From: Promethearchaeia archaeon
GTDB taxonomy: Archaea; Asgardarchaeota; Lokiarchaeia; Sigyniarchaeales; SOKP01
Assembly: GCA_029856235.1 (NCBI GenBank)
Contig: JAHQWP010000040.1
Span: 1-49,892, forward strand
DNA: 49,892 nt
Reading direction: 5' to 3'
The position numbers and the translations under genes were made by a program. How positions within the stretch are numbered: the first letter of the stretch is position 1; each line of letters begins with the position of its first letter. Below the pieces are notes generated by a model. The model did no database searches, had not been told where the DNA came from, and saw only the letters and a list, made by a program, of their open reading frames with translations. Shown piece after piece: positions 12,501-35,674 of this stretch.

Positions 12501-12507
12501 ATTGTTA

Positions 12508-14846: not shown

Positions 14847-15875
14847 ATGTTTGACAAATCGCATTGTGAAGAATGTAAAACAGTTGCATGTATGATGAAA
14901 TGTCAATGGATAAAGTTTGATAGCATTGACGCAGCTAAGAAGGAAATCATTAAACTGATTAATGAAGATGAAGATTGCAGAATATTAAAAGAATGTATGC
15001 TGTGTTTTTCATGCGATGAGTATTGTCCATACCATTCTCATCCTTTTGATAAAATTAATGAGTTACAGGAAAAATATGGCTCTCAAAACATCTTACCTGA
15101 GGTAGCTCAAAATTCAATCGATATGTATAGTGCAAAGAGAGAATTTGTACCGCGCCCGATTGATCCTAAAAAACCTATTTTAAATAAATGTGCGTTCCCT
15201 AAAACGAATGCCAAAGAAATGAAAGGACCCATGTTTGATGATCTGCAATCAGTTGGTGGTATGCATTACTTTTGTCAATTAGTGTACCAACATGTAGCAA
15301 AACCTTCCATTATCAAAGAAAGGGTACCACAGATTCTTGAAAACTTCATAAAAACTGGTGTTAATAAGGATACCGAAGTTATCTGCTGGCACGACGAATG
15401 TTATGGATTGTACACGTCATATTGTCAAAGAAACAACCTGGATGTGCCTTTTAAACCCATTCATATTTTTGAATATGTGTATAATTATCTAAAGGACCAT
15501 GAATCTGAAATCAAGAAATTAAACTTAAAAGCTGCTTATCAGCGAAACTGTTCCAATCGTTACGTTCCTGAGACTGATAAAATTCTTGATAATATATGCG
15601 AAATTATCGGGGTAGAACGGGTTGCGAGGAAATACGATAGAGAAAACGGTATATGTTGCGCTGCACCCTTTGGAATGAGGGGTCATAAAAATTTGGTGCG
15701 TAAAACCCAAAATGAAAATGTTCAGGACATGCTAGACTATGGTGCTGAAGTTTGTCTTTTCAATTGCCCCGCGTGTAAAGATACATTAGAAAGAAAAGTT
15801 ACTGCTAAGGGACTGAAATCTTATTTTATTAGTGACTTAGCAAGGCTCGCTTTAGGGGAAAAGTTGGAATATTAA
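14847..15875 (+). CDS. HdrB/HdrC-like (Fe-S)-binding protein with CCG domain, copy 1
   Basis: A 342-residue electron-transfer protein. The N-terminus has a cysteine set C7-x2-C10 followed by ACMMKC, then a ferredoxin-like cluster in CMLCFSCDEYCP. The C-terminal half is a heterodisulfide-reductase-type CCG domain with HDECYGL, RNCSNRY, ICCAAPFG and NCPACK. The canonical CCG has become CCA here, whereas the next gene keeps CCGG. It is a tandem paralogue of the gene at 15979. CCG proteins usually bind a noncubane [4Fe-4S] cluster and pass electrons to thiols or flavoproteins. Given the neighbours, it may donate electrons to the dehydratase system, but that is inference. Confidence 0.75.
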   Translation: MFDKSHCEECKTVACMMKCQWIKFDSIDAAKKEIIKLINEDEDCRILKECMLCFSCDEYCPYHSHPFDKINELQEKYGSQNILPEVAQNSIDMYSAKREFVPRPIDPKKPILNKCAFPKTNAKEMKGPMFDDLQSVGGMHYFCQLVYQHVAKPSIIKERVPQILENFIKTGVNKDTEVICWHDECYGLYTSYCQRNNLDVPFKPIHIFEYVYNYLKDHESEIKKLNLKAAYQRNCSNRYVPETDKILDNICEIIGVERVARKYDRENGICCAAPFGMRGHKNLVRKTQNENVQDMLDYGAEVCLFNCPACKDTLERKVTAKGLKSYFISDLARLALGEKLEY

Positions 15876-15881
15876 GTCTAT

Positions 15882-15900
15882 CTTATTTTTTTCTTCTTTT
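15882..15900 (+). terminator. T-rich transcription terminator
   Basis: A pyrimidine run (TTATTTTTTTCTTCTTTT) begins a few bases after the stop of the first CCG protein, the usual archaeal terminator. The paralogue downstream therefore probably has its own promoter. Confidence 0.5.
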
Positions 15901-15966
15901 ATTGTCCCATCATAATTATTAATAATATAGAGAAATTCATATACACAAATCAAATTAAATTATAAA

Positions 15967-15981
15967 AAGGTAAAGAAAATT
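15967..15981 (+). promoter_or_regulatory. Shine-Dalgarno and apparent ATT start codon
   Basis: AAGGT (15967-15971) is followed after 7 bases by ATT (15979-15981), in frame with the paralogue's start: ATT TTC GAC here against ATG TTT GAC at 14847. No ATG, GTG or TTG exists upstream of the conserved cysteines before the frame closes at 15928. Confidence 0.5.
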
Positions 15982-16998
15982 TTCGACGCATCTAATTGTG
16001 AAAAATGTGAAAACATAGATTGTTTGACTCGCTGTCAATGGATGGAATTTACCAATGTTGAAGAAGTGCGAGCAGAAAAAACTAAAATGATTAACGGGGA
16101 AGAATCTCGAGTATTATCTGACTGTGTTACTTGTTTTGCGTGCGACGAATATTGTCCTTATGATTCTCATCCCTTCGATCTAATAACAGAATTACAAGAA
16201 AAATACAATTCGCTAAATATAAACCCCGAAATCTTGGAAAGTACTATAAATAGATTCGCTCCACACGATCAAGTAAGATTAAAAGAAATTGATCCTAGTA
16301 AACCTGTGCTGAATAAGTGTGGACTTGGAAAAATAAATGCTAAACACATGGAAGGACAATTATTCGAAAATCTACAATATGTTAGTGGCCTTGACTTTTT
16401 TTGTAACTTGATGTATCATCATTACGCAAGAGATTCTATCATTAAGGAAAGGGCCCCAATCATATTAAGTAATATCAAGGCTCAAGGTATTAAAGAAATG
16501 ATTTGCTTTCACGACGAGTGCTATGGATTCTACGCTTCTTATTGTCCACGTAACAATATTGATCTTCCACCTAATTTTAAAGCAATCCATATTTACGAAT
16601 ACCTGTACAACTATTTAAAAGAACATGAATCCGACATCAAACCGTTGAATTTAAGAATAGCTTATCAAAGATCCTGCTCAAATCGTTTTATTCCTGAAGT
16701 TGATGAATGGGTTGATAAAATTTGCAATGTAATCGGTGTTGTTAGGGTGCATAGGAAGTACGATCGAGAAAATGCGTTATGCTGTGGTGGAATCTTTGCA
16801 ACTCTTGATAAAAAGGCTTTGGGGCGTAAAACTCAAAACGATAATATAAACGATATGATAGACCATGACGCTGAAGCATGTGTGTATAATTGTTCTATGT
16901 GTAAGGAAAGCTTAGGCTCTAAGGTTGAGCGAAAAGGGTTGAAAAATTATATCCTTAGCGATCTGTGTCGATTAGCACTTGGAGAGTCTTTGGATTAA
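15979..16998 (+). CDS. HdrB/HdrC-like (Fe-S)-binding protein with CCG domain, copy 2
   Basis: A 339-residue paralogue of the 14847 protein over its full length. The first standard start, TTG at 16024, would cut off the conserved N-terminal cysteines (NCEKC..., DCLTRC); the ATT at 15979 aligns exactly with the paralogue's ATG and has a properly spaced AAGGT site, so I extend to it. Motifs: CVTCFACDEYCP (ferredoxin-like), HDECYGF, RSCSNRF, LCCGGIF and NCSMCK. The C-terminal CCG is intact here. Probable role: soluble electron carrier or reductase subunit with noncubane cluster. The two copies may form a heteromer. Start codon is uncertain; the family is not. Confidence 0.75.
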   Translation: MFDASNCEKCENIDCLTRCQWMEFTNVEEVRAEKTKMINGEESRVLSDCVTCFACDEYCPYDSHPFDLITELQEKYNSLNINPEILESTINRFAPHDQVRLKEIDPSKPVLNKCGLGKINAKHMEGQLFENLQYVSGLDFFCNLMYHHYARDSIIKERAPIILSNIKAQGIKEMICFHDECYGFYASYCPRNNIDLPPNFKAIHIYEYLYNYLKEHESDIKPLNLRIAYQRSCSNRFIPEVDEWVDKICNVIGVVRVHRKYDRENALCCGGIFATLDKKALGRKTQNDNINDMIDHDAEACVYNCSMCKESLGSKVERKGLKNYILSDLCRLALGESLD

Positions 16999-22550: not shown

Positions 22551-23921
22551 TTATTTTGTTTTCATTACATCCATTAATAGACAGAAAATTTTAGCGTATA
22601 CTTTTCTTACAAGAGAAATATTAAAAAGCAATCTTATCAACCTTAGGACTCGATACTTTTTTGGCCAAAAGGTATTCAAATTCTTATCATAGGTTATTTT
22701 TTTAATGAAAAAGTTGTTCTGAAAAATTGAAATTAATAATTGATAAGTAATTATCGTAATGATATCCCAAGCTCGCTTTTTATGATATCTGGGGTAATCC
22801 AATTGTTCTCCATTCGCCATTCTAACGATTTCGATAATGTGATAAAGATCAATTTTGGAACTCATTAATTCCTTTGTTGCCCACATAAGATATAAACAAC
22901 CCCCACAGTAAGTTACTAAAGCTTGTGCGCCTGTATCTTCGGCTTCCTTATACTTTTTTATCCCTTCAGAGATAATATCGAAGGGAATAGACATATTTTT
23001 AACCCATGAAGCTCCTGCCCCAAATCCACAACATAAAGAATCTTTTCTAATATGCTCCATCTCAATTAAATCGCAACCACATTTTTTAAGAATTGCTCTA
23101 CGAACGTCCCAATAAGCCTCTCCACCTGCCTTAGAATAACAGTTATCGTGAACCGTCACTGAGATATTCAATTTATTACTAATTTTTATTTTATTATTTT
23201 CTATTTGCTTTAACATCCATTCATTAAAATTAATAAATTTCTGCTTGTGAGTTACTCCCATTTCAACCGGATGGACCTCTGAAAAAATGAAGTGAACTGC
23301 ATCTAAAGTATGAGTTACTGTTTGTACGCCCCAATTTTGAAAATCACTATCACATCTTTTCGCAATTTTTTGAACTGTATCTAAATACCCTCCCTGGTAT
23401 AAATATGCTCCACCTTCCCACTGATCCAAGCGAGATATAGGCGTATATGATTCTAATAACTTACTTCCCCCTATTACAAAGGGAAATAAATGTGTATAAT
23501 TCCCTATAAGTAGGATATTCTCATTAGGACTGGGTTTATGAGTTACCCATTTATTCACCCATTTTTTTTCTTGATTTGATAAAAATATATTTAATAACTG
23601 CCAGATATTGGGTTCTTCTGTTGGACACACAAACCGATAAAGCGGTGGTGCCCCCCTTATCTTATACAAGTCATTCCATCGTTCCAGTATTAACTGATAT
23701 GGATTTGCTTGTTGAGGACAATACAAGTTGCAAGAAAAACAAGAGTTACATTTTGAGAGGATATACTTAGATTCCTTTCCCTCAATTAATCTTTCCATCT
23801 CTTTTTTAGACTCTTCAATAGGTAGAAGTAATACGGGGCATTGATGGAAGCACTCACCACATAAATTACACGCATCTTTATTAAAAGCTGAAATTCTCTT
23901 ATTTACTAGCAATATCACCAC
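22551..23921 (-). CDS. HdrD-like Fe-S protein with a cysteine-less first CCG domain
   Basis: A 456-residue paralogue of the protein encoded just upstream (23915). Two ferredoxin-like motifs are intact (CNLCGECFHQCP, CNSCFSCNLYCP). The second CCG domain is intact (HDNCYSKAGG, LCCGFGAG, TYCGGCL). In the first CCG domain, every cysteine position of the paralogue is substituted: PGCN is IGNY, YCCGETLFR is WEGGAYLYQ, VLCTAG is VTHTLD. A basic, hydrophobic C-terminal tail of about 65 residues has no counterpart. It overlaps the upstream gene by 7 bases (GTG start); a TTG at 23912 is an alternative start. The two proteins probably form a heterodimer with one functional cluster site missing in this subunit. 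Confidence 0.82.
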   Translation of the reverse strand: MVILLVNKRISAFNKDACNLCGECFHQCPVLLLPIEESKKEMERLIEGKESKYILSKCNSCFSCNLYCPQQANPYQLILERWNDLYKIRGAPPLYRFVCPTEEPNIWQLLNIFLSNQEKKWVNKWVTHKPSPNENILLIGNYTHLFPFVIGGSKLLESYTPISRLDQWEGGAYLYQGGYLDTVQKIAKRCDSDFQNWGVQTVTHTLDAVHFIFSEVHPVEMGVTHKQKFINFNEWMLKQIENNKIKISNKLNISVTVHDNCYSKAGGEAYWDVRRAILKKCGCDLIEMEHIRKDSLCCGFGAGASWVKNMSIPFDIISEGIKKYKEAEDTGAQALVTYCGGCLYLMWATKELMSSKIDLYHIIEIVRMANGEQLDYPRYHKKRAWDIITIITYQLLISIFQNNFFIKKITYDKNLNTFWPKKYRVLRLIRLLFNISLVRKVYAKIFCLLMDVMKTK

Positions 23922-25186
23922 GCTTCCCCATATAATGGCGGATCTTCAGGAATATCAGCCAACGTGAATGTTTTTTTAGAAGGTATCTTTGGTACTTGTT
24001 TTTTCATTGTCCCCCAGAAAAAGTGCTTTGCTCGTTTTTTCTTTGCTTTATTGTTCAGACTAGGAGTCTCCCCCATTGCCATCTGTAAAAGTTCAATTAT
24101 ATGATATACCTTTAATCTTTTGAAATAAAGTTTCTTATTTGCAGTAAAGGTTGCTAAACATCCCGCACAATAAACGCACACCGCATCAGCCTTAGTTTTT
24201 TTAAACGCTTTGAAATTTCGCAAAGCAGACGCTCGAATTTTGAATGGTTGATAAGCAGAATCAACAGAAAAACCTGCCCCTATACCACAGCATCGCATAT
24301 TTTCTCTGCATGCTTCGGACTCAACGATTTCAATTCCTATTTTTTCCAGGATTTTACGAGGCAAATCCATATAATCATCACCGAACATTTTTGAGTAACA
24401 AGAATCTTGAATAGAAACGGTCATGTTGAGTTGATGCGTAATTTTAATCTCGCCATTCTCAATTTTCTCCCATATAAATTCAATATACGACTTTATCTCA
24501 TCAAATTTATAAGTTAAACCATAGTGAGGGAGTACGTTTTTAAAAACAGCTGTTCCTGCTGTACAGAGTACTAATAATTTTTTAGGATTTAACGTATTAA
24601 ACCATTGATCTAATCGTTTAGTGACTTGGAATAATTCCTCTCTATAACCTGTCCGGAATAAAGTTTCACCGCAGCAATATTCCAATCTTCCTCTAATATC
24701 TAGATCGTTAAAGAAGCTTGCTTGAGTTAATTCTGCAAAAGTTATTATATTACATCCCGGATATGTAAGAGTATCTCCCTCTAATGGTTTTAGAGATGCC
24801 CATTGTTTAACCAAATCCTTTGTTTGCCTAGGCAAATGCTCCATAACATAAGAACGGAAGTTTGGATAGTGGGGATATAATGTCATATAATATTTTCCCC
24901 TTTGTTTTAAACCGTCTCTCTTATATTGCTCATTCCACCTTTGTAGAATTAGGCTAGCAGGATATGCATTTTCAGGGCAGTAAAAATTACAGGAAAAGCA
25001 ACTCTGGCATTCATTAAGGACTCTTTGAGTGTTTTCTCCATTTATTAATCGTTTCATCTCATTGACTGAGTCTTCAATGGAAAGCCCCATAATCGGGCAT
25101 TTATGAAAACATTCTCCACAAATCGTGCATGCTTCTTTATTAAAAGAAGAAAAAAAACTAATATCGATAGGCTGTAATTTTGTCAT
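23915..25186 (-). CDS. HdrD-like Fe-S protein with two CCG domains
   Basis: A 423-residue soluble redox protein. Two N-terminal [4Fe-4S] motifs are seen: C20-x2-C23-x2-C26-x3-C30 and CQSCFSCNFYCP. Two CCG domains follow, with PGCN, YCCGETLFR and LCTAG, then QDSCYS, RCCGIGAG and YCAGC. This is the layout of HdrD, GlpC and LutA-type subunits, which carry electrons from a flavoprotein to a thiol or quinone-like acceptor. The ATG overlaps the upstream stop (ATGA), so it is translationally coupled to the gene at 25183. Acceptor unknown. Confidence 0.85.
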   Translation of the reverse strand: MTKLQPIDISFFSSFNKEACTICGECFHKCPIMGLSIEDSVNEMKRLINGENTQRVLNECQSCFSCNFYCPENAYPASLILQRWNEQYKRDGLKQRGKYYMTLYPHYPNFRSYVMEHLPRQTKDLVKQWASLKPLEGDTLTYPGCNIITFAELTQASFFNDLDIRGRLEYCCGETLFRTGYREELFQVTKRLDQWFNTLNPKKLLVLCTAGTAVFKNVLPHYGLTYKFDEIKSYIEFIWEKIENGEIKITHQLNMTVSIQDSCYSKMFGDDYMDLPRKILEKIGIEIVESEACRENMRCCGIGAGFSVDSAYQPFKIRASALRNFKAFKKTKADAVCVYCAGCLATFTANKKLYFKRLKVYHIIELLQMAMGETPSLNNKAKKKRAKHFFWGTMKKQVPKIPSKKTFTLADIPEDPPLYGEAW

Positions 25187-26361
25187 TCTTTGACCTCTAT
25201 TTCAATTTCATCTAAGATTTCCATTAAATCCAGCACTTCGAAGTCAAAATTATATTTTAAGTTAGCATCGCTTAAATTCGTTCTGCAGAATGGACAAGTC
25301 GAAGAAATTATAGAAGCCCCCGTGTCTTTTGCTTCTTCAAGGCGTTCTTTGGATATTTCAACAGCCCAATCGGGATAAGCGATTTTAACTCCCCCTCCTG
25401 CTCCGCAACACCAAGCAAAATTTCGATTTCTCTTCATTTCTACTAATTTTAGCCCGGGAATTTGTTTATATACTTCTCTAGGAAGTTCATAGATGCCCAT
25501 ATGTCTACCGAGATGACAAGGATCGTGATATGTAACTGTTTTATTATATTCTGATTTGAATTTTATTGCTTTCTTATCTAATAACTCTTTAACCAGTTCA
25601 AGCGAATGAAACACTTCGAAATCTATATCCTTTCCAAATCGTTTAAAATCTTTACTAAGAGTTTTATAACACCCTGCACACGAGGTGATAACCTTACTAG
25701 CTCCCGCATTTTTTATCTTTGAAATATTATAATTCATATAATCATCAATAATACTAAGCTGACCTGTTCTTATCATAGGACTTGTACAACAATGTTCATC
25801 TACCAACGTGAAATCAATCCCTACTTTCTTCAAAAATCGAAGTGTTGAGTCCCTTAAATTCTTTTGTCGATAATTAGATGTACATCCAATAAAGTAAACC
25901 CATTCTGCTTTTTCTGGCAATTCAAACATTTTTTTTAGTTGTTCATTATCGGAGTTAGCTTCTCCATATGGATTACAACTCTCCTCACATCGAGCGACGA
26001 GCAATTCTTGATTCTCTGCAGGGCCTATATTCCTAACCGCTAATTCTCTTAATGCTTCTATCATTTCAACAATAAAATCCGCGTGAGGTGCCTGACAAGC
26101 GTCCATACAAGCTCCACAGGTGGTACAAGCAAATATGGGATCCTTCAATTCATCTGTCCATTCAAGTTCGCCACTAACTACACCCCTGATAATTCTTATA
26201 CGACCAGAAGCCCAATATGATTCGAATAAAAACTTCTCTCCTGAAGGACAGATTTTTTCAAAATTTTTATATCCATATTTACAGGTACTACACTTGATGC
26301 AGCGATCAAATGCCATTTCTAAAACATCTTTTCCAATTAAATTATCATCAATTTCAACCAT
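25183..26361 (-). CDS. HdrD/GlcF-like Fe-S oxidoreductase subunit
   Basis: A 392-residue protein. I start at ATG 26361 because AAGGTAAGG lies 6 bases before it, though an ATG at 26379 would add six residues. Motifs: CIKCSTCKYGY...CPSG near the N-terminus, CTTCGACMDAC as a second cluster, then two complete CCG domains (IGCTSNYR, HCCTSPM, SCAGC; DPCHLGRHM, WCCGAGGGV, CPFC). It is the first of three overlapping Fe-S genes and lies downstream of the flavoprotein pair at 26525 and 27632, as GlcF-type subunits accompany GlcD-type flavoproteins. It is the likely electron acceptor of the FAD protein at 27632. Confidence 0.86.
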   Translation of the reverse strand: MVEIDDNLIGKDVLEMAFDRCIKCSTCKYGYKNFEKICPSGEKFLFESYWASGRIRIIRGVVSGELEWTDELKDPIFACTTCGACMDACQAPHADFIVEMIEALRELAVRNIGPAENQELLVARCEESCNPYGEANSDNEQLKKMFELPEKAEWVYFIGCTSNYRQKNLRDSTLRFLKKVGIDFTLVDEHCCTSPMIRTGQLSIIDDYMNYNISKIKNAGASKVITSCAGCYKTLSKDFKRFGKDIDFEVFHSLELVKELLDKKAIKFKSEYNKTVTYHDPCHLGRHMGIYELPREVYKQIPGLKLVEMKRNRNFAWCCGAGGGVKIAYPDWAVEISKERLEEAKDTGASIISSTCPFCRTNLSDANLKYNFDFEVLDLMEILDEIEIEVKE

Positions 26362-26524
26362 TGTGTGCCTTACCTTCATGGATTAAATATTTTGAATCAT
26401 AAAATGCTTATTTTTGTCAACAAACTTTTCCTTTCAAATTTAATTTGTTCGTTCAAAACAAATCTATCTTTCGTTTTATTAAAAAAAAATTTAAAAGTTG
26501 GTTATGGTAAATTTACTTACAATT

Positions 26525-27556
26525 TTATTTCAGAAGCGAACCATTATTTCTGATAACGGTTTCAGCTTTCTTTATTATCCTTTCAATGATATCGTCAACA
26601 TCATCTATGCTATCAATAATTCCTATCGATTGACCTAGTAAAACAGCACCAGTTTCAATATCTCCGTTATATACCCTGTCATATGAACCCATGTCTTTTG
26701 CTCTTTGCTCAGGAGAAATTGAATTTTCATAGGCGATCATCTCTTCTTTACTACTAGGCGCTGGATGGGATAAAGCGTATTCGTTTTTATATAGGCGAAT
26801 CGGACCAAATGTTCCAGTATAAAGTCCAGTATCTTGTGGTGTTCCAGGAGGAATTAACGCCTTGTATTTTTCGTGAAATTCACTCTGTTTCGATGCTATA
26901 AATCTCGATCCCATTGCTATTGCTCCAGCTCCTAACGAAAGAGCCGCAGCTAAGGACTCTCCTGTAGCGAAACCTCCGCAAGCAATTTTTGGTAAATCAG
27001 GAAATCTCTCGTTCATTTGCTGAAGCAAAACAAGAGTGCTAACTCTTTCGTATGATTGATGCCCTCCACCTTCAGTACCTGTGACCACTATCCCATCTAC
27101 GTTTGCAGCTACACATTTTTCAGCCAACCAAACAGCAGGAGCAACGTGAAAGTGCTTAACATCTGAGTTCTCTCTTAATTCCTGAAAGCTTTTAGATCCT
27201 GCAAGGATTTTTGAAGAACCCGCTGAAGTTAACCAATATTTACACTGATCTCGCATTTTCTCGTTAGCCATGACTATTTTTGGTAATGATCTTACCATTT
27301 GTCTGACTCCTGGATTATTCCGAGAAGTAAGGATGTTAAGACCAAATGTTTTATCAGTATGTTCGATCATATGTTCTAAGCTTGCCTTATGTTCTTCAAC
27401 GGGATTTGTGCCTGCTATGTTAACGTTTGATAACACTCCTAAGCCACCAGCCTCACTGACGGCAAGAGCTAAATCACGGGTAAAAAAGGGACCCATAGGT
27501 GCGCTAAATATAGGATGCTTTATCCCAAACATTTTAGTTATATTTGTTTCTATCAT
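26525..27556 (-). CDS. Nitronate monooxygenase-like FMN protein (NMO/FabK family)
   Basis: A 343-residue TIM-barrel flavoprotein of the 2-nitropropane dioxygenase type. Seen: GIKHPIFSAPMG at the N-terminus, GTEGGGHQSYE with the family's active-site histidine, and the phosphate-binding KIACGGFATGESLAAAL...GAGAIAMGSRF. In anaerobes such proteins may be enoyl-thioester reductases (FabK) rather than monooxygenases, since O2 is absent. A clear Shine-Dalgarno, AAAGGTGAT, lies 8 bases before the ATG. Context between a GlcD-type flavoprotein and HdrD-like proteins favours a reductase on an acyl thioester; that is inference. Confidence 0.82.
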   Translation of the reverse strand: MIETNITKMFGIKHPIFSAPMGPFFTRDLALAVSEAGGLGVLSNVNIAGTNPVEEHKASLEHMIEHTDKTFGLNILTSRNNPGVRQMVRSLPKIVMANEKMRDQCKYWLTSAGSSKILAGSKSFQELRENSDVKHFHVAPAVWLAEKCVAANVDGIVVTGTEGGGHQSYERVSTLVLLQQMNERFPDLPKIACGGFATGESLAAALSLGAGAIAMGSRFIASKQSEFHEKYKALIPPGTPQDTGLYTGTFGPIRLYKNEYALSHPAPSSKEEMIAYENSISPEQRAKDMGSYDRVYNGDIETGAVLLGQSIGIIDSIDDVDDIIERIIKKAETVIRNNGSLLK

Positions 27557-27631
27557 TTAATATATCACCTTTAGTTTGATAAATTAACAGAATTTTTAAA
27601 AGTACTTTTTTATCTTTCTCACTTAAAATTT

Positions 27632-29107
27632 CTATGTGTTCCATCTTCCGGGATTAAATATATTATTTGGATCGATACACTTTTTCACTTTTTCAAACAA
27701 GTGTAACCACCCAGGATTTATAATTTCACGCATCTTATCCGTCATCCAAATTGGCGTTTTATACGGAATACACCCTTCTGCGATACAAAATTCGGCTATT
27801 TCGTTGAGAAGACTATGGATTTTATCCTCGTCTTTGAATTTATTATATCGAAGTATCGGCCGAAAAATGCCGTAGTGAGCGTACTTCATTATTTTCATGT
27901 AGATAAATGGAGGGACGTCGTATTTCAAAAACAAATCGTTCACCTTCGGAATTAGTTTTTCGAGTTTATGCGTCGGAGCGTAAGATCCAAACCATGTAAG
28001 GCCCGAATATTCCACTAATGACAGAATTACTGCGGGCAAATCCAAGTGGCATCTAACTCTTAAACTAAATAACTTGCTAAACTCGTCAATATCTACGAGA
28101 AGAACTTTGATCCCTTGATTTTTCAAATTTTCTATGGTTTGCTTAAGATACTCCACCTTAGCTCTGAATAAACTTTCCGTTTTACCAGATATAGAAAAGA
28201 GTGCAGCAAAATCGGGTTCACCAGGAATCCTTTTCGGTTCTGGAAGTTCGATCGTCATTTTCACTACTTCAATGCTCACCGCTGATATGTCGTCTACAAC
28301 TTCTGTCCTTCCAACTTCTCTCATAACCGGTCCAATATCGGGCAAACCAAATACTACTCCAAGATAAGTCTTCTTATGAGGAGGATTCGGCCATAACTGA
28401 ACTGCACATTTAGTAACTAATCCTGTCATTCCTTGCCAGTTAATAAATAAACCCATCAAATCTGGCATTGGATATCTACTCCACCAACTGTCCTTATCCG
28501 CTTCTTCTTTCCCATAAAAGCAAGAACCAATCCGGGCGAGTTCTCCATCAGCAGTAATAACTTCTAATCCATTAATAGAATCACCCATTGATCCAAGTTT
28601 ACACGAGAGGTTGTTCATACCGCTCAAGATTACGTTTCCAACCACTCCCGCGTAAGGTGGAGCGAATGGATAACTATATCTAAGATGCGGATAGTTTTCG
28701 TCAAGATATTTTTTTAATTCTCCAAAGGTAACTCCCGGTTCTAGGAGAGCGTACATCATGTTCTCGTTGACGTGAAGAATTTTATTCATTTTTTTCCCAA
28801 AATCAACCACAATACCTCCATGTTCTGGGATCGTGAGACCACCAACATTATTCCCGGATATGTAAGGGACAATTGGTAGTAAGTTCTGGTTGCAAAATTT
28901 CACTAATTCTATTAACTGCGTCGAATTTTCAGGAATTACCACAAAGTCAGGCATGTGAGGCTCGCATTCGGTCATATCGTAAGAGTAGGGATATAAGTCT
29001 ACCGACTTATCTGTTACGTTCATGCTTCCAAATATCCCCTTTAATTTCTTATACACGTCCTCCTTACTTATTTTCTTATACAAATTTCTTTCCTTAGTTT
29101 CAGTCAT
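27632..29107 (-). CDS. FAD-binding oxidoreductase (GlcD / D-2-hydroxyacid dehydrogenase type)
   Basis: A 491-residue protein of the vanillyl-alcohol-oxidase fold. The FAD-binding PCMH domain begins near residue 55 (VVIPENSTQLIELVKF) with GNNVGGLTIPEHGG as the pyrophosphate loop. The C-terminal substrate domain ends in NNIFNPGRW, the usual signature of GlcD-like dehydrogenases. The substrate would be a 2-hydroxy acid or similar; the pocket cannot be read by eye. It starts at ATG 29107 after GGTGAG. Electrons would pass to the GlcF-like protein at 25183, which shares the transcription direction. Soluble, no signal peptide. Confidence 0.86.
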   Translation of the reverse strand: MTETKERNLYKKISKEDVYKKLKGIFGSMNVTDKSVDLYPYSYDMTECEPHMPDFVVIPENSTQLIELVKFCNQNLLPIVPYISGNNVGGLTIPEHGGIVVDFGKKMNKILHVNENMMYALLEPGVTFGELKKYLDENYPHLRYSYPFAPPYAGVVGNVILSGMNNLSCKLGSMGDSINGLEVITADGELARIGSCFYGKEEADKDSWWSRYPMPDLMGLFINWQGMTGLVTKCAVQLWPNPPHKKTYLGVVFGLPDIGPVMREVGRTEVVDDISAVSIEVVKMTIELPEPKRIPGEPDFAALFSISGKTESLFRAKVEYLKQTIENLKNQGIKVLLVDIDEFSKLFSLRVRCHLDLPAVILSLVEYSGLTWFGSYAPTHKLEKLIPKVNDLFLKYDVPPFIYMKIMKYAHYGIFRPILRYNKFKDEDKIHSLLNEIAEFCIAEGCIPYKTPIWMTDKMREIINPGWLHLFEKVKKCIDPNNIFNPGRWNT

Positions 29108-29125
29108 ACGATTTTTCTCACCACA

Positions 29126-29548
29126 TTACTTAGTCTCCTTATTTAATTCGTAATAATTATTGTTAGGGTCTGCCGCGACCATTTGCATACTGTTTAGAAA
29201 AATTTTTATAAATTTTAAAAGAATCCCAACTTTAAACAACCCTTTTATTCTTATTTTGCGTTTTATAACGGCTTTAATAGGCCCTAGTCTTCCGTAAGCT
29301 AAATCTAAAAGCGTATAAATGTTCATTTTTACCTTCAGATCTACCTTTTTATCAATATCACTTACTTTAAACCTAATTTCATCGCGTTCAAATATAATTT
29401 CAATTGGATAGAAATCTTCAATAACAATCAGTATTTTCTTGTTCCAATTTATAACAAGTTTCTGAAATTCGGCCTCGTTCTTCCTGTAGCTTAAAATGGT
29501 GCTTAAGGAAATTGAGAGCAAATCCTCCCCTTTCTGTATAGAAATCAT
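29126..29548 (-). CDS. SCP2-like lipid-binding protein
   Basis: A 140-residue protein similar in layout to the protein at 8608: two beta strands near residues 45-70 (IEIIFERDEIRFKVSDID), then VKMNIYTLLDLAYGRLGPI, the RKIRIKG turn and a last helix. This is the SCP2 pattern. SCP2 domains hold fatty acyl-CoAs, isoprenoids or sterols in a tunnel. The gene lies between the Fe-S fusion protein (36 bases) and the GlcD-like flavoprotein (18 bases), so the operon should handle a hydrophobic substrate. Fold assignment is by pattern and would need a profile search. Confidence 0.65.
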   Translation of the reverse strand: MISIQKGEDLLSISLSTILSYRKNEAEFQKLVINWNKKILIVIEDFYPIEIIFERDEIRFKVSDIDKKVDLKVKMNIYTLLDLAYGRLGPIKAVIKRKIRIKGLFKVGILLKFIKIFLNSMQMVAADPNNNYYELNKETK

Positions 29549-29583
29549 TATAATTACCTAAAATTTTTTTTTCTATTATAAAA

Positions 29584-30756
29584 TCAGCTTACTTCGACGT
29601 TAGCTTCTAAATCTTTAATCAGTTTATCAACGTAACTAAGATCTGTAATGGTTATAGTTATGGCTTCGTTAGGACAAGTGGTTTCACATCTGCCACAGCC
29701 TAAGCAGTTGTCTTGGTTCACTACAGCCTTGTTATCAATCATTTCCATACCATTGAAGACACAAACCTCTAGACATTCTTCACAACCAACACAAAGGTCT
29801 TCGTCAACTTTCACAGTGATACCATCCATTCTTTTAAACATCGTAGTAAGGCCTTTTGAGGCATTTTGTATGATAGTACCATCTATACAACAACACGGAC
29901 AGCAAAAACACATTGATAAGAAATGTCCTGTATCTGGAACTCCAAATCCCTCAGCTTCATCCATGGCTCTTCCAAGTAATGGAATTAAACCGTCCTCAAT
30001 ACAAAGTCTAACATGTTCTAAGGCTTCCTCCTTCGAAATAACTTTACTCCTGAAATGGGGTGAAGGAAAATTTAATGTATCATTACCCATGTGCATACAT
30101 CCTAGATTACGATTGTGATCTTTACATTCATGATATGTTCTACAAGGACAGTCGTTCATCTTGACAATATTACTCGCTTTATCAATAAAATGCTTAAAAA
30201 CCTTGAGAGGAATGATTTGACTATCATATGTCCCAAGAGCTTTATTGATTGGTATAAAGGCTCCAAAATCATTTTCCGATACTCGCTGTGTAACAATTTT
30301 TCTAAAGACAGGTATTTTTGATAAGATAAAAGGATGGTATTCTTTTTCTTTGTTAAATCGGGCTGTCACGAACGGTTTATTTATCCGAGCATTTTTTTTA
30401 CCCGTTTCTTTTTCAATCTCTTTCCATCCGATTGTTTGATTGATTTTAAAATTACCACCATACGCCGGGCCGTAATCAAATTCAAAGATTTCTCCTTTTA
30501 AGAATGTAATTGCTATCTCGCTATCTCTAATAACTAACGATATATCGGGCTTTTCTAATTTCTCTCCAAATTTATAGGAGACTTTATCTTGTTCAAAGAT
30601 CTGATAACCCAGAATCCCACAAATCTTCCATTGAACTGTAAATGTTCCAGTAGTTTTGATGTCCTCTTGATAAATTGCGTCTTTTGGAGCGTTTTCCTCT
30701 GTGTCTTTTAACATTTTTTTAAACAATGATTCAATTTCAACTTTCTTCTCTACCAT
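29584..30756 (-). CDS. SCP2-like / 4Fe-4S dicluster fusion protein
   Basis: A 390-residue protein. The N-terminal 95 residues (WKICGILGYQIFEQ, then KPDISLVIRDSEIAITFLKGE) resemble an SCP2 lipid-binding domain. After a linker comes a cysteine group C203-x-C205, C211, C220, then an unusual cluster CFCCPCCC at 283-290, then two ferredoxin motifs: C322/C325/C328/C332 and C351/C354/C357/C361. The ATG at 30756 has AAGGTG 6 bases upstream. The combination suggests a redox carrier docked to a lipid-like or acyl substrate. It is the native counterpart of the GC-rich paralogue at 31070. Confidence 0.78.
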   Translation of the reverse strand: MVEKKVEIESLFKKMLKDTEENAPKDAIYQEDIKTTGTFTVQWKICGILGYQIFEQDKVSYKFGEKLEKPDISLVIRDSEIAITFLKGEIFEFDYGPAYGGNFKINQTIGWKEIEKETGKKNARINKPFVTARFNKEKEYHPFILSKIPVFRKIVTQRVSENDFGAFIPINKALGTYDSQIIPLKVFKHFIDKASNIVKMNDCPCRTYHECKDHNRNLGCMHMGNDTLNFPSPHFRSKVISKEEALEHVRLCIEDGLIPLLGRAMDEAEGFGVPDTGHFLSMCFCCPCCCIDGTIIQNASKGLTTMFKRMDGITVKVDEDLCVGCEECLEVCVFNGMEMIDNKAVVNQDNCLGCGRCETTCPNEAITITITDLSYVDKLIKDLEANVEVS

Positions 30757-31069
30757 TATAACACCTTAATTATTCCTAAGTAAAATTAATAAATAATATT
30801 GTATGAAGTATTAAAAATTTATTTCTAAAGCATATATCCTATTTTTATTTAATTATTGATAAATCGCAAAATCTAGTCGAGGTTTATTTGTCCTTCTGAC
30901 TTTGAATAAAGCCATCTAATTCGCTTATCATATTTTTAAATAGAATTTCTAATTCTTTCATGGCTACCCCTTCATTATCTATTTCTCATAATTCCTTTTT
31001 AAAAAAAAAAATTTTCACTTCTCGGAGTCCCGCGATGAGACATGAACCCGCCGACAACCGGGCTTCCCC
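30757..31069. other. Gap between the two SCP2/ferredoxin genes, with a minus-strand mini-frame
   Basis: AT-rich in most of its length, turning GC-rich from about 31017. A 25-residue frame lies on the minus strand from ATG 30961 to TAA 30884. Its start, MKELEILFKNMISELDG, resembles the first residues of both neighbouring proteins (VEIESLFKKMLKD and VESFFKKMSKE). It may be a leftover of a third gene copy. Confidence 0.4.
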
Positions 31070-32275
31070 CTAGCTGACGTCGACGTAGGACTCTATGCGA
31101 GCAATCATCCTATCCACACCATCATCCTCGATGGTGATGGTTATCGCTCCAGTAGGGCACGCCCTCTCGCACCTTCCGCAGCCTCTGCAGCGATCCTCAC
31201 CTTCTCGGTCGATCACTGCAACCTGGTCTATTACCTCCATACCACCGTATATGCATACCTCAAGACATGCCTCGCATCCATTACAGAGAGCCTCATCGAC
31301 CGTGACGGACACTCCCTCCATCTTCTGATGCCACATTCTCAGATATCTGGGCGAGTCCTTGCCAGATCCCTCGACACAGCAACAGGGACAACAGAAGCAG
31401 ATATGCATCAGATCACCTTGTTCAGGCAGAGCCCCGTAGATGATCGTATCGGATTTGACTCTTCCCAAAGAGGGCAACAGGCCGGCCGCAACCGCACGTC
31501 GCGAACGTTCCATTGCTTCTTCCTTGGTGCCAATGCTCCCAAAGGTCTTCATCCGCAGGACCCCCTTGCCCAGGGCCATGCATCCGAGGGATTGGTCATA
31601 ATTCTTGCAATTGGCGAGCGCTCGACAGGGGCACACGGAGAAGAGATAGACATCACTCGCCTTGTTGATGAAATACTCGAGAATTGCGAGAGGTATGGGC
31701 TGGTTCTCGTACGTTCCCAAGGACTGATTGATCGGGATACGAACATCGTTGGAGTTCTCGGGGTCTGCGGTCCGCTCCATGATCGGTCGAAACACGGGTA
31801 TTCTCAGCAGGCGGGCAGTCAAGCTTTTATGCCTGGTGGGTGCATTCTCTTCGGCGGACTGGCTGGTAGGGGCATTACCGGGAGCGAAGCCGGTGACTTT
31901 TCCAATTTTCTTTTGCACCAGAGATCCATCGGGATTCTTCACGCCGATCAAGAATTTTGTCCTTACAAAGGCTGGCCAATGCTCGATTTCGTTATTGAGG
32001 AACTTGTAAGCCAAATCGAGATCAGTACACCCCAGTACAAGAGTCGGGTCTTCAGCCTCTTCGTCGATCCTGTACGAGTACTCCGTCTCGTCGAATACTT
32101 GATATCCCCTGATGGAACCGAACTCCCATTGCACTACTTCGTGGAAGTCCTCCATATCCTCTATATAGAACTCATATTGCACTGCATATTTAGCGGCATC
32201 CTCGAGCATCTTCACGAACAGCTCTCTAACTTTGGCCTCCTTTTCTCGTATGGCTACTTCGCCGTTTTGGTCTGT
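31017..32275. other. GC-rich island, probably acquired by lateral transfer
   Basis: Base composition jumps sharply: a counted line inside (31561-31620) has 35 G+C of 60, against 18 of 60 in a flanking line (30541-30600) and 17 of 60 at 32281-32340. The left boundary is near 31017, about 50 bases past the stop codon; the right boundary lies inside the gene near codon 17. No repeats or integrase mark the ends. Confidence 0.75.
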
Positions 32276-32326
32276 TTCTTTCGACATCTTTTTGAAAAAT
32301 GATTCAACTTCTTCTTTATTACCCAA
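31070..32326 (-). CDS. SCP2-like / 4Fe-4S fusion protein, GC-rich chimeric paralogue
   Basis: A 418-residue paralogue of the protein at 29584, with the same order: SCP2-like N-terminal domain (WEFGSIRGYQVFDE, LVLGCTDLDLAYKFLNNE), CPCRALANC...LGC group, CFCCPCCC, and two [4Fe-4S] motifs (CNGCEACLEVC, CRGCGRCERAC). Start TTG 32326 follows AAGGTGAT. The first 17 or so codons are AT-rich like the chromosome (MGNKEEVESFFKKMSKE), while the rest is GC-rich. The protein then repeats the same N-terminal motif (KVRELFVKMLED) where the native paralogue begins. So a foreign gene appears fused in frame to a native 5' end. A 50-residue linker with many S, T and P has no counterpart in the native copy. Confidence 0.8.
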   Translation of the reverse strand: MGNKEEVESFFKKMSKETDQNGEVAIREKEAKVRELFVKMLEDAAKYAVQYEFYIEDMEDFHEVVQWEFGSIRGYQVFDETEYSYRIDEEAEDPTLVLGCTDLDLAYKFLNNEIEHWPAFVRTKFLIGVKNPDGSLVQKKIGKVTGFAPGNAPTSQSAEENAPTRHKSLTARLLRIPVFRPIMERTADPENSNDVRIPINQSLGTYENQPIPLAILEYFINKASDVYLFSVCPCRALANCKNYDQSLGCMALGKGVLRMKTFGSIGTKEEAMERSRRAVAAGLLPSLGRVKSDTIIYGALPEQGDLMHICFCCPCCCVEGSGKDSPRYLRMWHQKMEGVSVTVDEALCNGCEACLEVCIYGGMEVIDQVAVIDREGEDRCRGCGRCERACPTGAITITIEDDGVDRMIARIESYVDVS

Positions 32327-32445: not shown

Positions 32446-33900
32446 TTAGAATCCGAGATCTTTCATCTTAGCTTTATTACTTAATAACCTTTCTTGAGTT
32501 ATAGGGAAGAATTTCCAAAAAATCAGAACTCCTATGAGTAAAACCACACCTGGAATGACACCTTGGATAAGGCGGATACCTATAAGTACTAAATTTATAT
32601 CACCACCAGCAGCTGTAACTGCTGATAACATGTCCGCATAAGTCTTATTGCCTGCTATAAAACCCGTTCTATCGTGAACGTACGCAATAATAAACTCGTC
32701 AATAGATGCAACAAGCCGAAGAAGCAATGCAGAAATCCCGAAGAGAACTCCTTTTTGATTTTTCCCCATCTTAACAATAACATCCTCAGTCACACTCGGA
32801 CCGACTATAGTGTATACGTATGAGTTTAAACCTCCCTGGGCGAGACCGAGAATGAATGCCATGATTATTAAATCAATAAGGCCCTGAAAAAACGTCAGTG
32901 GAAATAACGCAGCACATGATATGAGACCAGCAACCACGAACGCTTTCTTATTATTGTTTATTTTCCTGATATACCTGAGCCAAATAGGAATAGATATCAA
33001 AGTACCCACGAGATTTAAACCTAAAATAATAAGAAACATATCGCCACCAACCTTTAAGACAAAAGTTGTTACATATAACATGTTTGTTACAACAAGGGAT
33101 ATATATATTCCATTACATATTCCAAATAAAAACCATACCATGTAACTTTTCGTTTTTATAGCTTCTATAAGGGCTTTAAAAAAATTCATTCGCTTCACAG
33201 AATCGGGTGAATAATGCCTATCAATCATTAATTTATCTTCACGGTTACCAGGAAGAGACAAAATACCGAAAAGAAGAGCTATTACGGCGATTATCACTCC
33301 CATCATGCTATAACTGGCTCTTGGATCGCTAGGAATCATATCAGTAAAAAGAGGAGGTAATAACATCCCAAGGATAATAGCTAAGATGTCGAAAGGTGCA
33401 TAATATCTTGTGAATCTTCGACGCTCGTACTCCGTCCGAAATTTTTCTATTTGAACTGCCTTGTAATTAAGATTCACAAGCGTGCCAAAGGTGTCAAGTA
33501 AAACCAATGAAATTAATAACCACCCAAAAGCAGCCCCAGGATTCGTAGAACCATCGATGGTATTTGGGACTGAAAAGAGAAGAAAGACAGAAAAGACCCA
33601 AGGGATGATGCCTACGACGATCCATGGAAATCGTCTTCCCCATTTTCTCGTGAATCTCATATTTCGATCGATTAAAAAACCGAAAATAGGATCATTAATT
33701 GCATTATACAACAGAAAGATAAACATGGCGATAGCGACTAATGTTGCATTTAATCCAACAACAGCTTCATAATAGAAAAGCGTAAACCCTTGAACAGCAC
33801 CTATTAATGTAGAGCAAAGTAGCCCGAAAGCGTTGGAAAGAAAAGTCCATCTTGAATGTCTTGTTCCAACAGCTTCTGTAAATTCTATAGTTTCATTCAT
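32446..33900 (-). CDS. GPH-type sugar transporter (MFS_2; hexuronide/glycoside cation symporter)
   Basis: A 484-residue membrane protein with about 12 helices. The N-terminal signature YNAINDPIFGFLIDRNMRF...WGRRFPWI is typical of the glycoside-pentoside-hexuronide family (GusB, MelB). Cation-coupled uptake of sugars across the plasma membrane is the known role of the family. Its likely substrate could be a glucuronide, given the beta-glucuronidase 18 kb away at 12508, but no sugar gene is adjacent. Divergently transcribed from the CdhC-like gene at 34108. Confidence 0.85.
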   Translation of the reverse strand: MNETIEFTEAVGTRHSRWTFLSNAFGLLCSTLIGAVQGFTLFYYEAVVGLNATLVAIAMFIFLLYNAINDPIFGFLIDRNMRFTRKWGRRFPWIVVGIIPWVFSVFLLFSVPNTIDGSTNPGAAFGWLLISLVLLDTFGTLVNLNYKAVQIEKFRTEYERRRFTRYYAPFDILAIILGMLLPPLFTDMIPSDPRASYSMMGVIIAVIALLFGILSLPGNREDKLMIDRHYSPDSVKRMNFFKALIEAIKTKSYMVWFLFGICNGIYISLVVTNMLYVTTFVLKVGGDMFLIILGLNLVGTLISIPIWLRYIRKINNNKKAFVVAGLISCAALFPLTFFQGLIDLIIMAFILGLAQGGLNSYVYTIVGPSVTEDVIVKMGKNQKGVLFGISALLLRLVASIDEFIIAYVHDRTGFIAGNKTYADMLSAVTAAGGDINLVLIGIRLIQGVIPGVVLLIGVLIFWKFFPITQERLLSNKAKMKDLGF

Positions 33901-34107: not shown

Positions 34108-34869
34108 ATGGAAAATAAAACTAATATTGAGAAGATAAGAGATTTCTTAGAACAAGAGCAGAATAGTGGAAAACCCTTATTTATCTATCGGTCACAATTC
34201 AACCAGAACGATTCATCTTATAATTTCAAAATTGAAATGGGATTGAGTCAATATAAAGGAATAATACTTGAAGAGGAGACCGGTTTAGAACTTGGTGGAA
34301 TAAATAGAAAATCATTTTCAATAATAATTCCCTTAAAAAATACTAACCTGCTAGATCATGGAAAGATATCGTTATTAGGAAGAGAGATTGTAGAAATTTC
34401 GGAGCCAAATATAGATTTTGGATTAATCGTTCTAATTGGAATCAACGATATAGCTGAAAAAAGTAAAGAAGAATTAAAACACTTGAATATTATATCAAAC
34501 GGAATCGATGGGTTTTCAATTCGAACTATTCCTCGTAGATTTTGGTGTAGAATAAGTAAGTCCGCTCTCCAGAAAGGATTTTCGTTCGAGTTCTTAGGAA
34601 ATGCCATAATTCATTTGTATAAACGAAAATTCAAAGAATTAATCAATTCAATAGAAGTTATTTTTATCAACTCTTACCCAAGTTCCATTGAACAAGTTGT
34701 TACGCTAACTTCAGGAATCTTATTTAAAGAAAAGGAGAAATGGAAAAAAAAGATTGAAGAGTGGAGAAAGAGAATTGATTGTGACTACGATTGGGGGTGT
34801 GAAATCTGCCCGTATCAAGAAGAATGTTATAATGTCAAACAAGTGTTAGTTTCTCGAGAAGAGATTTAA
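34108..34869 (+). CDS. Truncated CdhC/AcsB-like protein (acetyl-CoA synthase beta N-terminal domains only)
   Basis: A 253-residue protein that matches the N-terminal part of archaeal acetyl-CoA synthase beta: EEETGLELGG (residues 55-64), a strand-rich segment with KISLLGREIVEI, RRFWCRISKSALQKGF (143-158), then a helix. It stops where the A-cluster region starts, ending with C225, C231, C234 and C240 (WGCEICPYQEEC). The later conserved cysteines, including the nickel-binding CGC motif, are absent. Thus it cannot be a complete acetyl-CoA synthase. The gene is followed after 31 bases by a CooC-type ATPase. It could be a cluster or nickel scaffold, or a regulator. Homology is by recall of CdhC, not by search. 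Confidence 0.7.
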   Translation: MENKTNIEKIRDFLEQEQNSGKPLFIYRSQFNQNDSSYNFKIEMGLSQYKGIILEEETGLELGGINRKSFSIIIPLKNTNLLDHGKISLLGREIVEISEPNIDFGLIVLIGINDIAEKSKEELKHLNIISNGIDGFSIRTIPRRFWCRISKSALQKGFSFEFLGNAIIHLYKRKFKELINSIEVIFINSYPSSIEQVVTLTSGILFKEKEKWKKKIEEWRKRIDCDYDWGCEICPYQEECYNVKQVLVSREEI

Positions 34870-34900
34870 ATTAAAAAAAATATTTAGATGGAATCCTATA

Positions 34901-35674
34901 ATGGAGTTGAAAAAAACACCGCTTATAGTTGCTATTGCTGGAAAAGGAGGAGTTGGTAAGACAATTATAACCACACTTATCGCGAAGGCTATTTCAACAT
35001 CTTACAAGCTTAAACTTTTATTGATAGATGCTGATCCGACTCATCCCCATCTAAGTAAAATGGTTAAATTAGTACCAGAAAAGAGTCTTGAAAAAATAAG
35101 AGCCGATTTAATCGAAAATACAATTAGTAAGAAAGAGGATCTTCAATCTATTGCTGAAGATATAGATTTTAAGGTTTATAATGCTATAAAAGAAAGTAAA
35201 GAATTTAGCTTGTTTTCAATTGGTCAACCTGAAGGTCCGGGTTGTTTCTGTCCTTCAAATGCTTTACTTCGTAAGGTTATAGAATCGATTTCTAGCGATT
35301 TTGATGTCGTTTTGATAGATTGTGAAGCGGGTCTTGAACAAATTAATCGAATGGTAATTAAATCAGTCGATATACTCCTAATTGTCACCGATATTTCTTT
35401 AAGGAGTGTAGAAACGGCAAAATCAATAAGCGAGAGCGCAAAGAAGTTTACTAATTATAAAAGGATAGGGATAATTATCAATAGAGTGAGAGGTGAAATA
35501 CCTGGTATTCTTGACAAACTTAAAGAATACGAATTGTCGGTGCTCATGTTAATACCTGAAGATGATCTTCTAACCAAATTTGATCTAGAAGGTAAACCAA
35601 TTATTGATATTTCAGAAGCATCGGTAAGCTTTCAAAAAATAAAGCAAAACATAGATAGCATTTTAGAACTCTAG
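34901..35674 (+). CDS. cooC: CooC-type nickel-insertion ATPase
   Basis: A 257-residue P-loop ATPase of the MinD/NifH-like superfamily. Walker A is GKGGVGKT at 14-21 and the switch region LLIDADPTHPHL follows at 40-51. The CooC signature C-x-C is present as C115-F-C117 in PGCFCPSN, which binds Ni or Zn at the dimer interface in known CooC proteins. It matures carbon monoxide dehydrogenase or acetyl-CoA synthase. The upstream partner is the truncated CdhC-like gene (31 bases), so maturation of a Ni-Fe-S centre is the best reading. No CODH gene is in the window. Confidence 0.85.
   Translation: MELKKTPLIVAIAGKGGVGKTIITTLIAKAISTSYKLKLLLIDADPTHPHLSKMVKLVPEKSLEKIRADLIENTISKKEDLQSIAEDIDFKVYNAIKESKEFSLFSIGQPEGPGCFCPSNALLRKVIESISSDFDVVLIDCEAGLEQINRMVIKSVDILLIVTDISLRSVETAKSISESAKKFTNYKRIGIIINRVRGEIPGILDKLKEYELSVLMLIPEDDLLTKFDLEGKPIIDISEASVSFQKIKQNIDSILEL

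Follow-up and report, generated by a model that had tools for sequence, protein, structure and literature searches.

The stretch of DNA analysed here (the window) comprises 49,892 nucleotides of a Lokiarchaeial genome, Promethearchaeia archaeon GCA_029856235.1 (contig JAHQWP010000040.1, positions 1 to 49,892), and the subject is a run of eight genes that includes two fusion proteins, FusA and FusB, in which an SCP2-like domain precedes an iron-sulfur module (Table 1). The genome, referred to as G000, measures 3.75 Mb and is 98.8% complete with 8.26% contamination. A preliminary description of the window had placed the eight open reading frames (ORFs) in close spacing on one strand, and an ORF check confirmed their coordinates and their minus-strand orientation. 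The first two neighbouring pairs overlap, by 7 base pairs (bp) between 22551-23921 and 23915-25186 and by 4 bp between 23915-25186 and 25183-26379, and the remaining gaps are, in order, 145, 75, 18, 35 and 313 bp, the 35 bp being those between the stand-alone SCP2 gene and FusA on the same strand. The run is extended by an MFS_2 transporter gene 119 bp beyond FusB, which is called from a TTG codon and whose real start is possibly further downstream.

The stand-alone SCP2-like protein and the two flavoproteins, of GlcD and NMO/FabK type, were recognised as such by Pfam. Three HdrD-like Fe-S proteins had also been proposed; CCG domains are present in all three, but the HdrD layout of two such domains is found only in 25183-26379, and for the other two the best NCBIfam models gave at most 66 bits, far under their cut-offs. 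None of the locus proteins reached an NCBIfam equivalog cut-off among the matches shown, and the labels in Table 1 are broad ones only.

Table 1. Features of the fusion locus and its flanks (positions in the window).
Feature	Position	Strand	Evidence
FusA, 390 aa; SCP2-like domain, six-cysteine IsrA-type module and two [4Fe-4S] motifs	29584..30756	-	
FusA residues 1-135, SCP2-like domain (core ~12-93, then long hairpin)	30352..30756	-	HHalign, decoys, Foldseek AF1534
FusA residues 137-312, homologue of IsrA-like N-terminal domain	29821..30348	-	HHalign; cysteine counts
FusA residues 313-370, two [4Fe-4S] ferredoxin motifs	29647..29820	-	Fer4 matches, invariant columns
FusB, 418 aa; architecture as FusA	31070..32326	-	~40% identity to FusA
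Stand-alone SCP2 protein, 140 aa	29126..29548	-	PF02036 31.7 bits, cut-off 21.3
GlcD-like FAD-linked oxidase	27632..29107	-	FAD_binding_4 and FAD-oxidase_C
NMO/FabK-like FMN protein	26525..27556	-	PF03060 130 bits; FabK equivalog 156 bits, under cut-off 453
TfrB/HdrD-like Fe-S protein, two CCG domains and Fer4_8	25183..26379	-	PF02754 118 bits; TfrB 219 bits, under cut-off 385
HdrD-related Fe-S protein, one CCG domain and N-terminal dicluster	23915..25186	-	Pfam
HdrD-related Fe-S protein, one CCG domain and N-terminal dicluster	22551..23921	-	Pfam
MFS_2 (GPH-type) transporter	32446..33900	-	PF13347 167 bits
Short acetyl-CoA-synthase (ACS)-like protein, ACS middle-domain relative with invariant CX5CX2CX5C	34108..34869	+	PF03598 48.7 bits; PDB ACS chains E 2.7e-6
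CooC-like ATPase with CXC motif	34901..35674	+	PDB best match CooC 3kje, E 4.5e-17

An SCP2-like N-terminus had been proposed for both fusions, with a profile search as its check. Neither N-terminus gave a Pfam match even at E <= 10, and NCBIfam returned nothing either, so the proposal was tested by profile comparison and fold instead. In HHalign, 26 fusion N-domains matched 11 stand-alone SCP2 proteins drawn from G000 and related genomes with a probability of 86.8 and an E value of 4.3e-6, against E values of 0.09-0.49 for five decoys (reversed SCP2, IsrA-like, HypB, HypA and short-ACS profiles). An AlphaFold model of FusA built on a 64-row alignment (predicted local distance difference test score 90.7, predicted template modelling (TM) score 0.85) retrieved the SCP2-like protein AF1534 of Archaeoglobus (3bn8/3cnu) in Foldseek with probability 1.00 and E values of 6e-4 to 1.4e-3, at 24% identity over 84-86 columns and a modest TM-score by target of 0.44-0.47. 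Behind AF1534 came UbiJ-SCP2 and alkylsulfatases, whose C-terminal domain we take to be SCP2-like. AF1534 also provided the top two matches, weak ones (E 0.011 and 0.043), when the N-domain profile was compared with PDB sequences. Both fusion N-termini hold an SCP2-like domain, as judged by fold and remote homology, but they do not reach the curated Pfam cut-off for PF02036. The likeness is partial and limited to the early part of the SCP2 fold (approximately residues 12-93); beyond it, FusA residues 102-134 form a long hairpin in place of the usual C-terminal part, whereas AF1534, the best match in both fold and sequence profile, is a stand-alone protein. Foldseek found no whole-chain relative of the FusA model, and most of its first rows were long, poor alignments driven by the ferredoxin motifs (TM-score 0.15-0.18 by query, root-mean-square deviation 24-29).

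Six fusions of 538-562 residues, in genomes G008 and G019, carry the SCP2-like domain in tandem. Stand-alone SCP2 relatives occur in other Lokiarchaeia, and in the contexts listed none lies directly beside a module gene, as a split-gene equivalent of the fusion would. Tandem pairs of small SCP2-like genes akin to the fusion N-domain were seen at L193 8061-8863 and L195 8205-9007, with an MFS transporter and, judged by eye, a TetR-like gene as neighbours; no fusions were detected in the genomes concerned. The window's 8608-9093 was considered as a further SCP2 protein and is unsupported: it matched no family, and its single-sequence HHalign E values were 0.08 and 0.53.

The C-terminal half of the fusions was correctly described as CPCR, CFCCPCCC and two [4Fe-4S] motifs. 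The ferredoxin ligands of FusA are Cys322/325/328/332 and Cys351/354/357/361, and beyond these eight, ten cysteines are invariant across 29 fusions. HypA genes in the neighbourhood of module genes led to a comparison with IsrA, a putative isoprene reductase of Acetobacterium wieringae that is induced by isoprene and encoded in the isr operon with two HypA and one HypB (PMC10134865, on whose relevant passages all statements about IsrA here are based). Those passages ascribe no recognised domain to the first ~270 residues of IsrA and describe six cysteines, with CXC at 180 and 254, as the ligands of a proposed fifth cluster ('cluster V'), possibly with nickel, at which a predicted substrate tunnel ends (the Cys6 site).

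IsrA-like relatives of similar length were compared in place of IsrA's own sequence (VUZ27132.1). Such proteins, of 853-989 residues, were encoded by 39 ORFs in 32 of 391 genomes drawn from a larger bacterial class, a 33rd genome giving a 341-residue match only, and 20 regions were taken for the comparison. With the ferredoxin motifs removed, the region corresponding to FusA residues 137-312 matched the N-terminal domain of these proteins with an HHalign probability of 98.9 and an E value of 2.7e-17, against 0.24 for a reversed-profile decoy. Six cysteines are shared (FusA C203, C205, C220, C283, C285 and C290), five of them present in 64 of the 64 chosen rows of the module alignment, C205 in 63, and all six in every one of 20 IsrA-like rows. 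The matching cysteines of one IsrA-like protein are C180, C182, C201, C254, C256 and C261, which puts its CXC motifs at exactly 180 and 254. By the profile comparison, the fusion module and the N-terminal domain of IsrA-like proteins are homologous, and in number and CXC positions the shared cysteines fit the description of the six-cysteine site in IsrA, so far as IsrA-like relatives can stand for it. Besides this domain, the two groups have in common a spacing of 74-80 residues between its two CXC motifs, a [4Fe-4S] motif that follows, and, in some genomes of each, a neighbouring HypA gene. They differ in the rest of the chain: IsrA, for which PMC10134865 mentions no SCP2 domain, continues into a GltD-like FAD/NAD(P)H part, whereas in the fusions SCP2 is present and a flavin domain absent. 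Pfam placed the flavin/NAD(P)H part (PF07992, PF14691) in the IsrA-like protein whose CXC motifs are at 180 and 254 (L284). A PDB search with the 64-row module profile gave ferredoxin-type matches only among the best 60 of 252.

Since the module is homologous to the proposed active-site domain of IsrA, the fusion C-terminus appears to be more than a ferredoxin and may be catalytic, and the electron-carrier role first assigned to it is not supported. A carrier would have its SCP2-like half dock to a membrane, an acyl-carrier or a lipid-modifying enzyme, while catalysis took place elsewhere, for example in the GlcD- or NMO-like flavoproteins. The two ordinary [4Fe-4S] motifs are consistent with this, as are the flavoproteins that adjoin FusA in G000 and in G002; furthermore, a separate 350-residue protein of the isr operon, which can be aligned to IsrA over the latter's first 270 residues, is named a 4Fe-4S ferredoxin, with no HypA association in the passages of PMC10134865 concerned. 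A mere carrier sits poorly with six further cysteines kept in 63-64 of 64 rows and common to IsrA-like proteins, with the absence of a detected GlcD-like gene beside the fusions in five of seven fusion genomes (in G003 and G021 only as far as the contigs reach), and with 14 fusions in one stretch of G008, which exceed the need for a single carrier. We regard the carrier role as rather unlikely.

A scan of bacterial and archaeal genomes found 163 relatives of the fusion alignment, the best 80 of which, in 74 loci, were kept. Within these, the nearest named records to FusA are metagenome-assembled genomes of Lokiarchaeia/Lokiarchaeota at 92% identity, and full-length fusions are confined to such records. 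The C-terminal half is present without SCP2 in many anaerobic bacteria (Desulfobacterota, Actinomycetota, Anaerolineae, Spirochaetes, Eggerthella and others), mostly as proteins of 265-350 residues. A record labelled Hodarchaeum is truncated ahead of the N-terminal part. In that record (Candidatus Hodarchaeum mangrovi, L082 1-534) the sequence begins within a module that looks, by eye, near-identical to a Lokiarchaeal fusion, possibly a binning error. Other domain swaps and expansions were seen in bacteria: in Desulfatibacillum alkenivorans (L094 8894-10729) the module is joined to what appears by eye to be an NAD-dependent epimerase/dehydratase, and the genomes of L105 and L094 (G238 and G241) gave 21 and 18 module-family matches, counts that probably include winged-helix-type members. 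Repeated origin of the fusion was considered and is unsupported, a single origin being compatible with a quick tree (approximately unbiased test, p-AU 0.69).

At least six paralogues in G000 carry the same module behind a different N-terminus that looks winged-helix-like by eye, which would suit a sensory function in which the metal module responds to redox state or a small molecule, the SCP2-like domain to a lipid, and the paralogues possibly act likewise on DNA. No DNA-binding match was found in the fusions with Pfam, however, and one IsrA-like protein combines a weak match to PF25212 (under the cut-off), presumably a winged-helix-type family, with a full flavin/NAD(P)H part, so the winged-helix arrangement is no proof of regulation. 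That the fusions are sensors is improbable.

HypA, to which the literature passages used here ascribe nickel delivery, lies within five genes of 73% of 988 IsrA homologues (PMC10134865). Around the 20 IsrA-like regions it was found within ~1.1 kb in 14, with HypB nearby in 16. The fetched loci contained 15 HypA rows, 14 of them 8-151 bp from a module gene, defined for this count by 'CCC' and a module-profile E <= 1e-15; the fifteenth (L108), ~1.3 kb from a module match, is excluded by that definition. With three duplicates removed, the 14 rows represent 11 distinct genes, each in a different genome; eight of these genomes are bacterial, and G008, G019 and G021 are Lokiarchaeal. The HypA profile was seeded with four rows, all of them module neighbours, and most HypA loci had been fetched around module genes. 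Genome-wide, 14 Lokiarchaeal genomes held 16 HypA genes above the Pfam cut-off, three beside modules and 13 elsewhere, and none of those 13 had a module gene in flanks of up to 1.5 kb; in G008, G019 and G021 the module-adjacent HypA is a second one, another being present elsewhere in the genome. Among the stand-alone six-cysteine modules, eight directly adjoin HypA (L106, L113, L120, L125, L126, L131, L139 and L142), with HypB in the locus in seven, and their bacterial hosts include Anaerolineae, Bacteroidales and Eggerthella. They differ in this respect from the separate ferredoxin of the isr operon, which has no HypA association as described in PMC10134865.

These neighbours bear on whether the six-cysteine site contains nickel at all. 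It could hold a plain Fe-S cluster in some other Fe-S reductase, for example a reductive dehydroxylase or a catalyst of the double-cubane type: no HypA match was found in G000, and the authors of IsrA, in the passages available, liken its site to P-cluster and double-cubane sites (PMC10134865). The presence of HypA, in bacteria mostly with HypB, beside the module in several bacterial phyla, of HypA beside it in three Lokiarchaea, and of both beside most of the IsrA-like genes fetched argues for nickel, and a nickel-free site of this kind is assigned a low probability.

The distribution of the locus genes was followed through 58 genomes, G000 included. Full-length fusions were found in seven, and a GlcD orthologue of at least 53% identity in 33, five of which also have fusions and 28 of which do not; fusions and GlcD lie together only in G000 and G002. 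Elsewhere the fusions are on contigs other than that of GlcD (G008, G019 and G029), so that the assemblies do not give their distance, or occur with no such GlcD (G003 and G021, 83% and 89% complete), where the view is partly open because the fusions lie on a 13-kb contig in G003 and ~1.1 kb from a contig end in G021. Meanwhile, GlcD keeps constant company in the contexts listed, with SCP2 before it, TfrB after it and often a second SCP2-GlcD pair, and the conserved unit of SCP2, GlcD and TfrB/HdrD-like genes thus stood up to comparison. In most of these contexts a 253-residue short ACS-like protein and an ATPase are encoded across the divide. Both the short ACS-like gene and the GlcD orthologue are present in 28 genomes, other families of the order included and genomes of other orders omitted (GlcD best matches down to 53% identity), and 24 of these have the two no more than 12 kb apart; in three of the remaining four the two are on different contigs and in one they are 23 kb apart. 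The fusions are beside the short-ACS/CooC pair in G000, G002, G003 and G021, the G003 contig holding a partial short-ACS gene.

The locus is therefore made up of two separable modules, the rarer fusions and the widespread SCP2-GlcD-TfrB unit with its CooC-like and short ACS-like partners. The preliminary description had joined them in one system acting on a hydrophobic acyl substrate, with the fusions, SCP2, GlcD, NMO and HdrD-type proteins in one operon and pathway. Common strand, the 35-bp gap between FusA and SCP2 and retention of the adjacency in G002 fit that proposal; but the adjacency occurs in two of seven fusion genomes, 28 of 33 GlcD genomes have no fusion, and G003 and G021 have fusions and no such GlcD, albeit in incomplete assemblies. 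The full gene set is present together in two of the 58 genomes, and its absence from most related ones largely amounts to the refutation that the preliminary description had itself named. Because the two units are mostly apart, the shared-operon idea fails in most genomes, and a single pathway is very doubtful. What remains of the original interpretation is the SCP2/Fe-S fusion and the conserved SCP2-GlcD-TfrB unit, without the single system, the carrier role or the claim that no such system has been described.

The fusions have multiplied in two genomes. G008 has 16, with 14 in one 52-kb stretch, and at least five short modules besides, and G019 has nine. The N-domains of paralogues are the least alike, with a mean identity of 0.32 compared with 0.48 for the module and 0.53-0.55 for the ferredoxin part, and all 66 pairs compared in G008 and all 15 in G019 had a lower identity in the N-domain than in the module (single-SCP2 fusions in the alignment only, 12 of 16 and six of nine, respectively). 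Sixteen versions in one genome suggest a family of enzymes for hydrophobic molecules. Scanning 20 non-fusion genes of the G008 stretch and its flanks gave matches for 17 and none for three. They include GH31 and GH2 glycosidases, a glucuronoyl-esterase-like protein, alpha/beta-hydrolases and a beta-lactamase-like esterase, along with L-fucose-isomerase-like, Gfo/Idh/MocA, acyl-CoA dehydrogenase-like and AMP-binding proteins, an aldehyde ferredoxin oxidoreductase, and LarA-like and MeaB-like proteins. The plant- or polymer-type hydrolases of this island suggest substrates released from glycosides or esters. A relative of the window's MFS_2 transporter (at least 56% identity) lies near the fusions in five of the six other fusion genomes among the 58, the exception being G008, where only a relative of 28% identity is present, ~9 kb from the fusions.

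The reading we favour, with a probability of roughly 45%, is that the fusions are a Lokiarchaeal family of substrate-dedicated oxidoreductases that reduce hydrophobic compounds, most likely ones with C=C bonds. The SCP2-like domain would bind a hydrophobic molecule and present it to the six-cysteine domain, which would hold a Ni- or Fe-containing sulfur cluster and carry out the reduction; the likeliest target, following the proposal for IsrA, would be a C=C bond. The two C-terminal [4Fe-4S] clusters would pass in electrons from ferredoxin or from flavoproteins such as the neighbouring ones. Copies would multiply and their SCP2 halves diverge fast to fit different substrates, imported by the neighbouring transporter and released by neighbouring glycosidases and esterases. 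The SCP2-GlcD-TfrB unit would be a separate module, next to whose CooC-like and short ACS-like partners the fusions and transporter lie in four genomes; its free SCP2 protein probably serves the GlcD flavoprotein, from which electrons would go to TfrB.

Several points weigh against such a family of reductases. No result points to any substrate, and IsrA is itself a proposal: its diene reduction rests on induction data, the passages of PMC10134865 give neither activity of purified protein nor nickel, and both are putative. The fusions end after two [4Fe-4S] motifs with no GltD-like FAD/NAD(P)H domain detected in the chain by Pfam, so a separate electron donor is needed. HypA is beside a module gene in three of nine fusion genomes and beside no fusion in the other six, and a genome-wide search found none in G000 at 98.8% completeness; given the seeding and the sampling around module genes, the HypA evidence has weight only in the tightness of spacing and in the genome-wide Lokiarchaeal check. 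Relaxed constraint alone could explain why the N-domain diverges faster, the G008 island encodes much else besides hydrolases, and the 8.26% contamination of G000 must be kept in mind.

A more far-reaching form of the proposal is that the fusions constitute a new class of Asgard nickel-iron-sulfur reductases in which the built-in SCP2 domain delivers large hydrophobic unsaturated molecules to an IsrA-type site, with up to sixteen substrate-diversified members per genome, comparable to reductive dehalogenase sets, and the compounds serving as electron sinks. Terpenoids, sterol-like compounds, aglycones or the cell's own isoprenoids are candidate molecules. As a whole this is speculative and somewhat unlikely.

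Oxygen-independent ubiquinone hydroxylation by UbiT, UbiU and UbiV likewise brings together an SCP2 lipid-binding protein and [4Fe-4S] proteins on a hydrophobic isoprenoid without oxygen. UbiU and UbiV are peptidase-U32-type proteins, and no match of that type was found among the 20 window proteins scanned; the stand-alone SCP2 protein scored 18 bits against the UbiT equivalog (cut-off 46.9). The GlcD/GlcF and TfrB/HdrD-type dehydrogenases share with the locus an FAD-linked oxidase beside a CCG-domain Fe-S protein, and differ in that the equivalog cut-offs are not reached here and that SCP2, CooC-like and short ACS-like genes lie alongside. No description of an SCP2-module fusion was found in the literature searched, which left out most subscription journals; the module itself, however, has a described, putative relative in IsrA (PMC10134865, in the passages cited). 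The novelty accordingly lies in the domain architecture, the lineage and the strong expansion.

Through this comparison an orphan family of Asgard genes becomes tied to a described candidate for hydrogenating unactivated dienes under anaerobic conditions, and it acquires a recognisable substrate-binding domain whose ligands can be searched for directly. The six-cysteine domain is found outside IsrA in many anaerobes, several times beside HypA and HypB. Lokiarchaea are related to the ancestors of complex cells; if the reductase proposal is true, terpenoid- or sterol-like compounds could act as electron acceptors for some of them, and small soluble proteins would offer a way to test a new kind of nickel site.

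The short ACS-like and CooC-like pair, divergent from the SCP2-GlcD-TfrB genes, is conserved beside them across the order. The short ACS-like protein (34108-34869) keeps four cysteines at its end, C225, C231, C234 and C240, in 18 of 18 rows. Its window sequence contains no CGC, which we take to be the nickel site motif of the acetyl-CoA synthase (CdhC) A-cluster, and so lacks the full cluster; it scored 46 bits against the CdhC equivalog (cut-off 356). The product of 34901-35674 is a P-loop ATPase with a CXC motif kept in 11 of 11 rows and is closest in the PDB to CooC, ahead of MinD (E 1.1e-11); its best NCBIfam match is archaeal MinD at 73 bits (cut-off 202), with no CooC model among the matches listed. 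Positions 34108-35674 are a possible undescribed nickel-related system of their own.

Elsewhere in the window, the family-less 161-residue protein at the start of 8608-11600 is followed by a 2-hydroxyglutaryl-CoA dehydratase D-type protein (9104-10255) and by a second one split across ORFs 10311-11108 and 11169-11600. Two more HdrD-related Fe-S proteins are encoded on the plus strand at 14847-16998, with a GH2 glycosidase (12502-14220) and a DUF6125 protein (14245-14760) upstream of them.

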